Shown here one piece after another: positions 11,360 through 22,376 of a stretch of DNA of 64,000 nucleotides (within the stretch, counting starts at the first letter, position 1; each line of letters opens with the position of its first letter). The stretch is from Halogeometricum sp. S1BR25-6 (lineage in GTDB: Archaea > Halobacteriota > Halobacteria > Halobacteriales > Haloferacaceae): positions 186,001 to 250,000 of the forward strand of contig NZ_JAMQOP010000004.1 in assembly GCF_031624495.1 (NCBI RefSeq). Direction: 5' to 3'. A program made the translations under genes and the position numbers. The notes under the pieces were generated by a model, which saw only the letters and a list, made by a program, of their open reading frames with translations, was not told where the DNA came from and ran no database searches.

Positions 11360-12928
11360 CTACTCGCTCGTCTGGTCGGTTATCGCGCCGCGCTTTATCT
11401 TCCCGGTGCTCGTCCGCGGGAGCTCCTCCGTCCGAATCGTGTACTCGCGCGGGCGCTTGTAGTTCGCGAGGTCGGTCCGCTCGCGGCAGAACTCGTCGAG
11501 TTCCTCCCCGGTGACGCTTCCGCCCTCAGTGACGACGACGGCGTTGACGACGCGACCCCAGTGGTCGTCGTCGACGCCGAAGACGTACGCCTCCGAGACG
11601 GCGGCGTGCGATTCGAGCGCCTGTTCGACCTCGACCGGGTAGACGTTCTCGCCGCCGCTGACGAACATGTTGTCCACTCGGTCGACGATGTAGAGGTAGC
11701 CCTCCTCGTCGATGCGCGCCACGTCGCGCGTCCGGAGCCACTTCCCGTCCTCCCCGCTCGCGGGGTCCTCGAAGTAGGACTTCGCCTCCGCCTCGGGGTT
11801 GTCGATGTAGCCGTCCGAACAGCCCGGACTGCGGGCGATTATCTCCCCCTCCTCGCCGGCGTCGACCGTCGCCTCGGGGTCGGGATGCTCCGTCACCGGC
11901 ACCGGTTCGACGACGCGAATCTCGTAGGTGTGCGCCTCCTTCCCGACGGTCCCCGGCCGCTCGTGTTGGTCCTCGGGGAGCGAGAACGTGAGGTTCGGCC
12001 CCGCCTCGGTCATCCCGTAGGTGTTGTACACCCGGTCGGTGACGTGCTCGCTCATCCGCTCGACGAGGCGTTCGCTGACGACGGAGCCGCCGGTCCGGAC
12101 GTACTCCAGCGAACTCGTGTCGCACTCCAGCGACTGCTGGGCGTCGACGACGGCGTTCAACTGCGTCGGCACGGCCAGCAGACCCGTCGCCTCCAGTTTC
12201 TCGACCTGTTCGAGCAGGCCTGCCGGGTCGAAGTCGGAGTGGAGGACGACGGTGGCGCCGGCGAGGAAGTGCGGATAGATCCACGCGTCCGAGGAGACCA
12301 TGTGGTACCACGGCGTCGCGACGATGCCGGCGTCGGTCCGGTCGATACCGTGCTCCATGACGCCCTGAATCGCGCCGTACCACAACTGTTCGCCGTCGAA
12401 CGGCACCGCCTTGGGCCGACTGGTCGTCCCGCTGGTGAAGAAGATGGAGCACTCCCCGTCGGCCGGCGGCGCCCCGTCGAGCGTCGGGGGCGCCTCCGCC
12501 AGTACCTCCTCGTAGGACTCGACGCCCGCCGCGTCGACGTCGGCGTCGCCGACGTGGATGGCCGCCTCGAAGTCGCGCCGGGCTAGCACTTCCTCGGCCG
12601 TCTCGCGGTTGTCGTCGTCGAAGACGAACCCCGTCGCGTCCACCGACTCGCACATGCGGACGAACTCCTCGGCCTCGCCCCGGAACGGGAGTTGAGCCGT
12701 CGCGGCGCCGCGCTTGTGGCCCGTCACCATCGTTTCGATGGCGGCCGGGGAGTTACCGCCGAGCACCGCGCAGCGGCCGTCCCCCAGTCGCGCCGTGAGC
12801 GCGTTCGCGAGGCGGGTGCTCCGGTCGTCCAGTTCCGCGTACGTGAACGTCCGTCCGTCCTCGGCGACGAGCGCCGTCTCGCCCCCGTGACACCGGACGG
12901 TTCGCCGGAAAGCGTCGAAGAATCTCAT
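11360..12928 (-). CDS. AMP-dependent acyl-CoA synthetase / CoA ligase (class I adenylate-forming)
   Basis: A 522-residue ANL-superfamily enzyme that activates a carboxylic acid as the acyl-AMP and transfers it to CoA. Visible motifs in order are the phosphate loop IFFTSGTTSRPKAVP, the aromatic/substrate helix YHMVSSDAWIYPHF, YNTYGMTEAGPN, RTRDVARIDEEGYLYIVDR, the hinge DRVDNMFVSGGENVYP and the C-terminal catalytic Lys in TSTGKIKRG. The substrate cannot be read from sequence. Its closeness to a gentisate dioxygenase makes an aromatic acid (benzoate or hydroxybenzoate type) worth testing. ATG 12928 (MRFFDAFRRT) gives the standard family start; the in-frame start at 12946 only adds six residues. 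Confidence 0.9.
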   Translation of the reverse strand: MRFFDAFRRTVRCHGGETALVAEDGRTFTYAELDDRSTRLANALTARLGDGRCAVLGGNSPAAIETMVTGHKRGAATAQLPFRGEAEEFVRMCESVDATGFVFDDDNRETAEEVLARRDFEAAIHVGDADVDAAGVESYEEVLAEAPPTLDGAPPADGECSIFFTSGTTSRPKAVPFDGEQLWYGAIQGVMEHGIDRTDAGIVATPWYHMVSSDAWIYPHFLAGATVVLHSDFDPAGLLEQVEKLEATGLLAVPTQLNAVVDAQQSLECDTSSLEYVRTGGSVVSERLVERMSEHVTDRVYNTYGMTEAGPNLTFSLPEDQHERPGTVGKEAHTYEIRVVEPVPVTEHPDPEATVDAGEEGEIIARSPGCSDGYIDNPEAEAKSYFEDPASGEDGKWLRTRDVARIDEEGYLYIVDRVDNMFVSGGENVYPVEVEQALESHAAVSEAYVFGVDDDHWGRVVNAVVVTEGGSVTGEELDEFCRERTDLANYKRPREYTIRTEELPRTSTGKIKRGAITDQTSE

Positions 12929-13060: not shown

Positions 13061-13924
13061 ATGGACGCGGCGCAGACCACCGGACCGCGCGCGCTGGCGA
13101 CGCAGGTGAAGCCGCCGTTCATGGCGCCCGCCGTCGGGACGGCCCTGTTCGGCGCGCTTCTCGCACCGTCCGTCTCGCCGGTCGCCCTCTGCCTTCACGT
13201 CGTCTGCGTCGCCTCGGCGCTGTACGTCGCCCACCTCCGCGACGAGTTCGTCGACGCCCACGTCCGCGGCGAGGACGACCCGCGCGTCGCCGCGTCGCTC
13301 CTCCGTCCGGCCATCACGGTGACCGCCTTCGTCTCACTCGTGGCGTGCGCCGCGCTCTCGGTCGTCGCCGGTCCCCTCGCGGCCGCATTCGCTCTCCTCC
13401 CACTGCTCCTCGGGTACGTCCACGCCTCCCACCTCGACGCGCGCACGGTCGCGGGCAGCCTCGACTATCCGGTCGCCGTCGGACTCGTCCTCGCGGGCGG
13501 CTACGTCGCTCAGACCGGGCGGGTCCCCCCGTGGCTGGCGTGGCCGTCCCTCTCGTTCGTCGCTCTCCTGACGGGGGCGAACGTCTCCTTGGACCGACTG
13601 GACCGCTCGTTCGACCGACGTATCGGCAAGCGGACGGTGCCCGTCGTCCTCGGGGATGCCCGCGCCGCCCGCGTCGCCGCCGGATTCGTCGCCCTCTCGG
13701 GGGTTGTCGTCCTCGCCGCCGTCGCCTCGGGGGCGCTCCCCCTCCCTGCCGCCGTCGCCGCGGCGTTCCCGTTCGCCGCCGCGGTTCTCTGCGTTCGGGC
13801 GCCGCCGGAACGAGCGGTCCGCGTCCAGATGGTCGCCGCCTACCCGTTCGCCGCGACGCTCTACGCCGCGACGTGCTTCGGCGTCACCTGCGTCCTCGCG
13901 CGCGCCGCCGGCGTCGCCCCGTGA
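13061..13924 (+). CDS. UbiA family prenyltransferase
   Basis: A 287-residue membrane protein of about eight helices. UbiA enzymes transfer prenyl groups to aromatic, lipid or carotenoid acceptors using Mg2+ held by two Asp-rich loops. Here loop 1 reads HLRDEFVDAHVRGEDD and loop 2 reads DRLDRSFDRRIGKRTVPVVL. It is clearly paralogous to the N-terminal half of the fusion at 21201-22376, sharing the AHxxDxxVDxHVRGEDD block. A CTTTACC element at 13033-13039 lies about 26 bases before ATG 13061. The substrate is unknown; candidates are lycopene elongation or quinone/lipid prenylation. Confidence 0.88.
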   Translation: MDAAQTTGPRALATQVKPPFMAPAVGTALFGALLAPSVSPVALCLHVVCVASALYVAHLRDEFVDAHVRGEDDPRVAASLLRPAITVTAFVSLVACAALSVVAGPLAAAFALLPLLLGYVHASHLDARTVAGSLDYPVAVGLVLAGGYVAQTGRVPPWLAWPSLSFVALLTGANVSLDRLDRSFDRRIGKRTVPVVLGDARAARVAAGFVALSGVVVLAAVASGALPLPAAVAAAFPFAAAVLCVRAPPERAVRVQMVAAYPFAATLYAATCFGVTCVLARAAGVAP

Positions 13925-13933
13925 GAGGCGCGT

Positions 13934-14701
13934 TCAGCGGTAGGTGAGACTGAGTTGCACGTCGTTGGCGGCGGCGGAGAGTCGGTCCGCTAGTTCCCCT
14001 TCGCACCGCTCGCGCGGGAGTCGGTGGGCCGGTCCGGCGACGGCGAGCGACCCAACCACGGACCCCTCCGAGACGAGGGGGACGGCGACGGCGTGGATGC
14101 CGCTCAGGTCCTCGCCGAAGTTGAGCGCGTAACCGCGTTCGCGGGCCTCCGCCAACTCCTCGTCCAAGCGCTCCCGGTCGGTCACCGTCGCCTCCGTCTG
14201 CGCCGGCAGGCCGCGTCGCGCCAGAATCTCGTCGACCTCCTGCTCGGGAAGGTGCGCGAGAATCGCCTTTCCGCCGGAGTTCGAGTGCATGTACTTCCAC
14301 GACCCGATGAGCGAATTGACGTTGATGTCCACTCCCTCCGAGCGCCCGTCGAGGTAGATGACGCGCCCGTTCTCGTGCGCCATCAGCCACGCCGTCTCGC
14401 CCGTGTCGTCCGCGACGTCTTGGAGAACCGGCAGCGCGGCGTCGTACACTGCGCGCCGGGCCCGGACGTGGTGCCCGTAGTTGAAGAACTCCAGTCCGAG
14501 GTGGTACTCCCCGTCTCGCTTCACCACGAACCCCCGGTCGCGCATCGTCGAGAGGTGTCCGTGGACGGTGCTCTTCGCGCGACCCGTCGCCGCCGCCAAC
14601 TCCGTCACGCCCGCGCCGTCCGCCTCGCGGATGTGTTCTACGAGGTCGAACAGCGTCTCGTCCGACTTGATGCCGCCTCCTTCGGGAGTATCCGAAGCCA
14701 T
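13934..14701 (-). CDS. IclR family transcriptional regulator
   Basis: A 255-residue regulator. An N-terminal winged helix (LFDLVEHIREADGAGVTELA, then RAKSTVHGHLSTM) precedes the IclR effector domain (WLMAHENGRVIYLDG, NSGGKAILAHLPE, GYALNFGEDLSGIHAVAVPL, GSLAVAGPAHR). ATG 14701 (MASDTPEGGG) gives family length. IclR proteins in haloarchaea often control neighbouring sugar or aromatic catabolic genes. On the same strand upstream lie the Gfo/Idh/MocA, isomerase and epimerase genes, which makes those plausible targets. The gene is convergent with the UbiA gene, with 9 bases between stops. Confidence 0.9.
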   Translation of the reverse strand: MASDTPEGGGIKSDETLFDLVEHIREADGAGVTELAAATGRAKSTVHGHLSTMRDRGFVVKRDGEYHLGLEFFNYGHHVRARRAVYDAALPVLQDVADDTGETAWLMAHENGRVIYLDGRSEGVDINVNSLIGSWKYMHSNSGGKAILAHLPEQEVDEILARRGLPAQTEATVTDRERLDEELAEARERGYALNFGEDLSGIHAVAVPLVSEGSVVGSLAVAGPAHRLPRERCEGELADRLSAAANDVQLSLTYR

Positions 14702-15095
14702 ACCTCTCACAGCGTTCGGGAGGCTCCTAACGTTTGCGCCGGGTCGTCGCCCGCGGGTCGACACTCCCGAACGACCGGCGGCCGTCGAGAAATCGTCGCA
14801 ACCCGTTGCCGGTGCCGAGAGTAAACGGATGCTTCGGGCCATCTCGCTCGTTCCTTCTCATCGAACATCGTTAGGAGAGGCGAGCGAAGCATTACGCCCG
14901 TAGTTCCGTCAGTCAATGGCGACGGGAGACGTACCGTCGCACTCGCGGTTCGAACGAGGCGTTTCTTCCGAACCGAACGCACGAATCGAAGGCCCGAGCG
15001 GTCGATATCGTTCGATGTCGCCGAACAAGATTCCGGCAGTTTCGATTCCCGCGTTCACGGGGACGTGCGCGAAGGTCGACCGACCCCTCTCTTCT
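14702..15095. other. Intergenic region upstream of the IclR gene
   Basis: No gene is supported in these 394 bases. It should contain the IclR promoter. A long-range inverted repeat is present: ATGCTTCG at 14829-14836 and CGAAGCAT at 14885-14892, with additional CTCGCTCG/CGAGCG complementarity inside. It could be an operator or part of the 3' region of the Gfo gene. Confidence 0.4.
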
Positions 15096-20335: not shown

Positions 20336-20646
20336 ATGGCTCCCGACGAAAGCCGCGAACAAGGCGTCGAGTTCGGTTCCCTCGGCGACGAACTGGCCGA
20401 CGACGAGTATCCGACGAGTAAAGCGGACCTGCTGGAGCGGTACGGCGACCGGGAACTCGAACTCGAAGACGGCTCTCAGACGCTGCGGGAGGTGCTCGGC
20501 CCGTTGGGAGAGACGAGTTCGAATCGGCCGAGGACGTGAAACAGAGCGTCATGAGCATGGTGAGCGACGAGGTCATCGGCCGAAAGAAGTACTCGGACCG
20601 AGGCCGACAGGGGGAGGACGACGAGGGGGGCGCGGCGTCGGCGTAA
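20336..20646 (+). pseudogene. Frameshifted DUF5789/DUF2795-like small protein gene
   Basis: The frame from ATG 20336 reads MAPDESREQGVEFGSLGDEL, then YPTSKADLLERYGDRELEL and LREVLGPLGE, after which it runs to an early TGA. Around 20512-20515 a shift restores DEFESAEDVKQSVMSMVSDE and GRKKYSDRGRQGEDDEGG up to TAA at 20644-20646. Together the two parts resemble a haloarchaeal small-protein family with the LxDEYG..ELE...E..LGPLG core. One missing base near GGAGA-GACG accounts for the break. Confidence 0.65.
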
Positions 20647-20959: not shown

Positions 20960-21200
20960 GGACGTCGGTTCGAGCGCGAGACCCGTCAACGGTACGGCCG
21001 TGACGCCTCGGCGGTGCGTGTAGCGAGGGTCGGTCTGTGTCGCTCTCCGACGATAGTATATTACAACCGTGCGCGGGTAACGACCCCCCCGAACGGCGGT
21101 TTCACCGACGGCGACCGCACGCTCGAATCCGCCCGACGCCGCCGGCGTTCGCATCGACACTGGCCCGTAGGTTCTTGTGGTCGGCACCGATACCACGCGT

Positions 21201-22376
21201 ATGGGTATCTCTCGCCACGGACACGGAGCGCTCGCCGCCGGACGGGCCCTCGGGTCGCAGGTCCACCCGGTGTTCATGCTCCCGCCGGTCGCCGCCGCCG
21301 CGTTCGGCGCGATACTCGCCGCGGAGGCACATCCGGTCGTCCTCCTCGCTCACCTCTTCGCCATCTTCTCCAGCGTCTACACGGCGCACGTGAAGGACGG
21401 ATACGTCGACTTCCACGTCCGCGGCGAGGACGACGACCACCCGCTGACGGCGGGCGGGTGTCGCCTGGCCCTCGTCGCCGCCGGCGTCGTATTCGCGGCC
21501 TGCCTCGCCGTGTTGTGGCTGTTCGCCGGCCCACTCGCCGCCCTCGCTACCCTCCCCGCGTGGGTCATCGGCGTCCTCCACGCGCCGCAGTTGGACACGA
21601 ACCCCGTGACGACGACGGCGGGGTACCCGCTCGGCATCGCCGTCGCCCTGTTCGGCGGCTACTACGTCCAGACGCTCGCCGTCGCGGCGGCACCGCTCGC
21701 CTTCGCCGGCGTGTTCTTCGTCCTCCTCTGCGGCGTGAAAGTCATCGACGACTCGACGGACTACGACTACGACCGCTCCATCGACAAACGGACCGTCGCC
21801 GTCGTCCTCGGCCGCCGTCGGGCGCGGCGATTCGCGCACGCCCTCGTCGGTGTCGCTCTCGTGGCGACGCTTTGGTTCGCCGTCGACGGCCTGTTCCCGC
21901 CCTCGGCCGTCGTCGCCGCGGCGCTGTTCGGCGTCGTCGCCGCCGTCAGCCTCGATGCCGACCCGGAACTCGCGACGATGCTGCTCGTGCGCGGCGCGTA
22001 CGTCTTCCTCGCCGTCCTCGTCGTCGGCGTCTGGTTCGCCCCCCTGACGAACGCTCCGCTCCCGGATATCGGCGTGCTCGGGCCGTACACCTACCTCGCG
22101 ACCGAGGTGGTCTTCGGTACCGTCGCCCTCGCGCTTCTCGTTCGCGCGGGTCGAGAGGCGCTGTGGTCGGCGGCCCGGACGATTGCCGTCCTCTACCCCG
22201 TCGCCTACCTCTGGGACTGGTACACGCTCGAAGTCGGCGTCTTCGACATCGTGCTCAGAACGGGCGTCGACCTGTTCGGCATCCCCCTCGAAGAGCACCT
22301 GTTCATGCTCGTCGTCCCCGCGTTCGTCCTCGGCCTCCACGAGACGCTCCGTCGTGCCGACCGGCGGGACGAGTGA
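21201..22376 (+). CDS. UbiA prenyltransferase fused to a lycopene cyclase (CrtYc/d-type) domain
   Basis: A 391-residue membrane protein in two parts. Residues 1-285 are UbiA-like, with AHVKDGYVDFHVRGEDD (loop 1, about 63-78) and DDSTDYDYDRSIDKRTVAV (loop 2, about 183-201). Residues 295-385 form a three-helix segment containing YLWDWYTLEVGVFD and the P-x-E-E-x-x-x-F signature IPLEEHLFMLVVP (361-373) of heterodimeric lycopene cyclases. UbiA carotenoid enzymes elongate lycopene to C50 products, and CrtYe/Yf-type cyclases close C50 rings, so one chain could do both steps. Only one cyclase half is present, whereas the family normally needs two. ATG 21201 starts the conserved part. Confidence 0.82.
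   Translation: MGISRHGHGALAAGRALGSQVHPVFMLPPVAAAAFGAILAAEAHPVVLLAHLFAIFSSVYTAHVKDGYVDFHVRGEDDDHPLTAGGCRLALVAAGVVFAACLAVLWLFAGPLAALATLPAWVIGVLHAPQLDTNPVTTTAGYPLGIAVALFGGYYVQTLAVAAAPLAFAGVFFVLLCGVKVIDDSTDYDYDRSIDKRTVAVVLGRRRARRFAHALVGVALVATLWFAVDGLFPPSAVVAAALFGVVAAVSLDADPELATMLLVRGAYVFLAVLVVGVWFAPLTNAPLPDIGVLGPYTYLATEVVFGTVALALLVRAGREALWSAARTIAVLYPVAYLWDWYTLEVGVFDIVLRTGVDLFGIPLEEHLFMLVVPAFVLGLHETLRRADRRDE

Follow-up and report, generated by a model that had tools for sequence, protein, structure and literature searches.

A UbiA prenyltransferase fused to a single lycopene-cyclase half

The window, by which we mean the whole stretch of 64,000 nucleotides that was analysed, contains an open reading frame (21201..22376, +; 391 amino acids and a stop codon) that encodes a UbiA prenyltransferase domain followed by a single lycopene cyclase half of the CarR/CrtYcd type. 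The question raised by this locus is what such a chain makes, and with what partner its lone cyclase half works. The reading frame is open from a GTG at 21177; the ATG at 21201 is the start favoured by homologues, which have the N-terminus 'MxIARHG' in common.

The fusion is genuine. It had been recognised in a preliminary description of this DNA, and both parts are confirmed by family models: PF01040 (UbiA) matches residues 32-252 with 46.7 bits (Pfam; cut-off 34.2), and TIGR03462, on whose match to the C-terminal part the preliminary description had staked its claim, matches residues 296-377 with 44.7 bits (NCBIfam; cut-off 39.4). PF18916 is borderline, at 25.3 bits for the 391-residue protein (cut-off 27) and 29.6 bits in the genome search. 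The chain holds only one cyclase half, as had been stated. Structure prediction of the full chain, proposed at the same time, returned a confident fold (AlphaFold2 with 45 homologues as input; pLDDT 91.0, pTM 0.83), the first 280 residues of which adopt a UbiA fold (6m31, Z 24.1 over 263 residues, rmsd 3.5; UBIAD1 8djk, Z 23.4). The cyclase half of the model was covered by none of the PDB fold matches listed, VIA-align covered only residues 7-274 well, and a PDB sequence search with the family profile gave no match. In comparison with the Halogeometricum pallidum gene (92% identical), dN/dS comes to ~0.12 over the UbiA part and ~0.18 over the cyclase part, and both are therefore under purifying selection. 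The features discussed below are:

21201..22052, +: UbiA-fold prenyltransferase domain (residues 1-284), equivalent to an unfused orthologue of ~285 amino acids in other haloarchaea
21396..21431, +: first Asp-rich motif, DGYVDFHVRGED (residues 66-77 of the UbiA part)
21747..21788, +: second Asp-rich motif, DDSTDYDYDRSIDK (residues 183-196 of the UbiA part)
22053..22373, +: single lycopene-cyclase half (residues 285-391), equivalent to a stand-alone protein of ~110 amino acids elsewhere in haloarchaea; 56-72% identity to the stand-alone halves
22212..22229, +: residues 338-343 of the cyclase half, with the motif WDWYTL
22284..22304, +: residues 362-368 of the cyclase half, with the PLEEHLF signature and its putative proton-donor acids
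13061..13924, +: UbiA paralogue that lacks a cyclase half and shares 42% identity with the UbiA part of the fusion; outside the module's clade and not part of the module

Conserved residues of the two parts

In the UbiA part, the first Asp-rich motif reads DGYxD with E-D further on, the initial Asn of the usual NDxxDxxxD being replaced by Asp. D66, G67, D70, E76 and D77 of this motif show no variation in 45 fused homologues, and the altered form is kept in 104 of 105 fused and unfused UbiA homologues. The metal ligands of AfUbiA are N68, D72, D198 and D202 (PMC4106721); aligned by eye, N68 is position-matched to D66 of the fusion, so that a metal-binding Asn is here an Asp. The second motif, DDxxDxxYDxxIxK, is kept in all 105 homologues, and K180, D183, D184, D187, D191 and K196 are invariant in the 45 fused ones.

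Both motifs that had been named for the C-terminal part, YLWDWYTLEVGVFD (residues 336-349 of the fusion, as quoted) and PLEEHLF, are present there and conserved in the 45 fused homologues, with W338, D339, W340, Y341 and L343 invariant in the one and P362, E364, E365, H366 and F368 in the other. Orthologues lacking the P-E-E-F residues had been named as evidence that would tell against a fusion; P-x-E-E-H-x-F is kept in 45/45 fused and 26/26 stand-alone halves, which is to say in all 71.

The UbiA part is distinct from the lycopene elongase of the same genome

The preliminary description had assigned the UbiA domain to the carotenoid-elongase kind, an identity that neither a family scan nor a search of the organism's own genome supports. 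In the NCBIfam scan, NF009516, NF010119 and NF009608 were not among the matches of the fusion even at E 10. The genome's LyeJ is a separate gene (locus C2) that scores 440.6 bits against NF009516. Its neighbours are a CrtI-like desaturase on one side and CruF on the other, with a CrtB-like gene further out, which is the arrangement expected of a LyeJ cluster (PMC9258230). The genome has eight UbiA matches in all. A whole-genome search with the fusion as query retrieved one UbiA paralogue only, and not LyeJ, and a profile of the UbiA part found nothing convincing among the remaining UbiA genes of the genome. The paralogue at 13061-13924 (+) is flanked by an AMP-binding ligase (11360-12928, -) and an IclR regulator (13934-14842, -), and its relatives occur alone in some genomes without the module.

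A search of the same genome for a second cyclase half, also proposed earlier, found only a two-domain CrtY besides the half of the fusion, and no separate second half; these are the only cyclase-type domains in the genome. CrtY lies at locus C1, adjoining a Brp/Blh-like ORF (named by eye). The bacterioruberin and retinal routes are thus encoded apart from the fusion, at C2 (CrtI-like, LyeJ, CruF, CrtB) and C1 (CrtY, Brp/Blh-like), and the module is separate from the established genes of both. Labels assigned automatically, for example 'prenyltransferase' or 'lycopene cyclase domain', may place the module's genes wrongly in carotenoid pathways.

We also considered the genomic neighbourhood. The neighbours of the fusion scanned with Pfam in the window include GlcNAc 2-epimerase family, DUF7383, ATP-grasp and PAC2 proteins, and no carotenoid genes are among them. 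Gene clustering around ~80 homologous loci gave neither a pathway nor a shared carotenoid neighbour, and the stand-alone halves have no biosynthetic neighbour at the 24 loci examined, where the conserved neighbour is a CBS-domain-like gene (by eye). Fused and unfused UbiA genes share flanks in several species, namely an aminotransferase-like and a GTPase-like gene (named by eye). Close to the fusion, a short gene (20338-20646, +) is split over two frames, with one base missing near 20516 in comparison with H. pallidum (L042, 88% DNA identity); this is a frameshift or an assembly error.

The UbiA part and the half occur together across haloarchaea

We searched 391 haloarchaeal genomes with the fusion and obtained a match in 315. 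The whole fusion is present in 91 genomes (90 in one piece and one, G061, in two; counted by hand), and an unfused UbiA orthologue, with the match confined to residues 1-284, in ~218; the remaining matching genomes, which have neither, contain a paralogue or a half only. In all 23 unfused carriers re-examined by direct protein match (G183 set aside) a separate half is present. In 22 of these it comprises ~95-115 residues with 56-72% identity, and in G161 the match is longer, with 58% identity.

Throughout the survey, the presence of UbiA and an odd number of TIGR03462 domains agree in 387/391 genomes: 306 have UbiA and an odd count, 81 have no UbiA and an even count, and four are exceptions. 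An odd count corresponds to the half on its own or together with any number of two-domain CrtY, so that the half is read from parity here and by direct check only in the examined subset. Two of the exceptions are incomplete assemblies (G377, 92% complete; G386, 85% complete), G183 lacks a half and its UbiA is divergent, and G230 has a half without UbiA. The stand-alone half of G230 (98% complete) is found at L205 4038-4625, with no UbiA partner found in that genome. Fisher's test on the co-occurrence of UbiA and half gives 3.6e-79, a value that ignores phylogeny. Seven genera (g2, g3, g7, g26, g28, g37 and g46) contain both presence states, and in these both parts change together, which indicates repeated joint gain or loss. 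These patterns strongly support the view that UbiA and half form an obligate pair in haloarchaea, where ~79% of the sampled species carry the two-part module. Outside the class, the family is absent from the 392 genomes sampled from the phylum, save for weak UbiA matches in four.

The preliminary description had held that a partner subunit or a homodimer is required. In 125/309 carriers the module's half is the sole cyclase-type domain, and since these genomes have exactly one such domain, the second half used by the CrtYcd, CrtYe/f and LbtA/B enzymes is absent from them. This argues against a partner in the form of a second half, and the same 125 carriers, which lack CrtY, rule out CrtY as a partner half that is generally needed; a homodimer, or the UbiA part itself as partner, is possible. 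CruF is present in 386/391 genomes, a distribution too uniform to discriminate between a carotenoid and a non-carotenoid substrate. It is kept in haloarchaea without the pair, including our control Haloferax volcanii, which has CruF and no TIGR03462 match, and the module is therefore dispensable for bacterioruberin.

Comparison with known systems and proposed function

We found no published description of the haloarchaeal module in the open literature, subscription papers being mostly outside this coverage. Its closest precedent is LbtBC of Dietzia sp. CQ4, a proven fusion of a lycopene elongase with one C50-cyclase half that works together with LbtA (PMC6393565, PMC6669644). Like the haloarchaeal fusion, it combines a prenyltransferase of the UbiA family with one cyclase half in a single polypeptide. 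In LbtBC, however, the cyclase half is N-terminal (1-134) and the elongase follows (135-432) (PMC6669644), whereas the haloarchaeal fusion has the reverse order, UbiA first. The CrtEb, CrtYe and CrtYf system of Corynebacterium also combines an elongase-type UbiA with cyclase halves of the same superfamily, but it consists of three separate proteins, two of them different halves; the haloarchaeal module has a single half, and its UbiA belongs to another subfamily. LyeJ, the haloarchaeal lycopene elongase/hydratase (NF009516), has the UbiA superfamily in common with the fusion but is encoded by a gene of its own, and the fusion has no match to its family. Haloarchaeal CrtY (CrtYcd), in which two halves are fused, has the TIGR03462 domain with its PxEE motif, and of these two it is the C-terminal one that the module's half resembles more closely (hhalign E 2e-9 vs 1e-5). 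Unlike CrtY with its two halves, the module's half forms a clade of its own and is kept in genomes without CrtY; a whole CrtYcd-type cyclase needs two halves, whether joined in a single chain or supplied as separate subunits, and the module has one.

We read the gene, with belief and doubt in about equal measure, as a fused version of a haloarchaeal membrane enzyme with two obligate parts, a prenyltransferase of the UbiA fold and one half from the lycopene-cyclase superfamily. The module probably prenylates and cyclises a membrane isoprenoid, both substrate and product being inferred. The UbiA part, with its two Asp-rich motifs for Mg-diphosphate, would attach a prenyl chain to an acceptor, either a lipid or an isoprenoid; the half would pack on UbiA, or homodimerise through the chain; and the acidic PxEEHxF would protonate the chain end, or take over the cation, to close a ring. 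Because the enzymes for bacterioruberin and beta-carotene are encoded separately, the product is probably neither of these and instead a minor cyclised prenyl lipid, quinone or carotenoid. It is possible, if somewhat doubtful, that a lycopene-cyclase half works here without a second half, with UbiA or its own homodimer as partner, as a one-chain prenylating cyclase that is widespread in haloarchaea and makes a cyclised isoprenoid undescribed there. A catalytic half would break the two-halves rule of CrtYcd-type cyclases and predict an undetected cyclised isoprenoid in common haloarchaea. Some observations count against a two-part enzyme: the first Asp-rich motif departs from NDxxDxxxD, the gene neighbours indicate no pathway, and a half with intact acids could be structural only.

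In the last case the half would have no catalytic role, serving instead as a membrane subunit that stabilises the UbiA prenyltransferase or gates it, and no ring would be formed. The known cyclases of the superfamily use two halves and the module only one, the near-perfect pairing with UbiA is as expected for a subunit, and both parts lie in one confidently predicted fold (pTM 0.83); a scaffold would not, however, need PxEEHxF, which is invariant in every fused or stand-alone half tested, and we regard this explanation as unlikely. A haloarchaeal counterpart of LbtBC, in which UbiA elongates lycopene by C5 units and the half closes rings at its ends to give cyclic C45/C50 carotenoids, would have the proven Dietzia fusion as its model, and lycopene should be available given that CruF, a bacterioruberin-pathway gene, is nearly universal in the survey. 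It seems to us distinctly unlikely: the UbiA part has no match to the elongase family that holds the genome's own LyeJ, the pair does not adjoin carotenoid genes while LbtBC lies within a carotenoid cluster, LbtBC needs the second half LbtA and many haloarchaeal carriers lack a second half in any form, the domain order is reversed, and the portions of the review literature examined mention no cyclic C50 carotenoid of haloarchaea. Production of a variant respiratory quinone, by a MenA-like side activity that yields a modified or cyclised isoprenoid tail, is consistent with weak MenA-like NCBIfam matches, with UBIAD1 among the best structural matches and with a second Asp-rich motif that aligns with MenA (by eye). 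Yet all MenA models fall far below cut-off (best 42.8 bits vs 264), and the genome seems to encode a separate MenA, adjoining an o-succinylbenzoate synthase-like ORF (L005; by eye), which makes this explanation very improbable.

Evolution of fused and split forms

Whether fused or not, the UbiA parts group in one clade (100% SH-aLRT), with the paralogues outside it. The halves from fused and stand-alone genes likewise form one clade (96% SH-aLRT), distinct from both halves of CrtY. On the UbiA tree the fused/unfused label needs five changes, the starred branches being compatible with a single change. The Halorubrum fusions are nested among Halovenus and Natronomonas sequences, a placement that suggests transfer.

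In G161 the separate half retains a decayed UbiA C-terminus (15.9 bits vs a best of 11.4 among 2000 shuffles), and an intact UbiA-only gene lies ~1 kb from it on the opposite strand (L201 3149-5587). At least there, the separate genes probably arose by fission from a fusion, to judge from these remnants. The layout looks as if the fusion had been duplicated and the copies had then degenerated in a complementary way. The occurrence of the module as a fusion in some species and as split genes in others offers ready-made knock-out and complementation tests. In Salinigranum salinum (L103 5935-7232), the fusion gene extends over two reading frames with the UbiA part and the half apart, which is a frameshift or a recent split.
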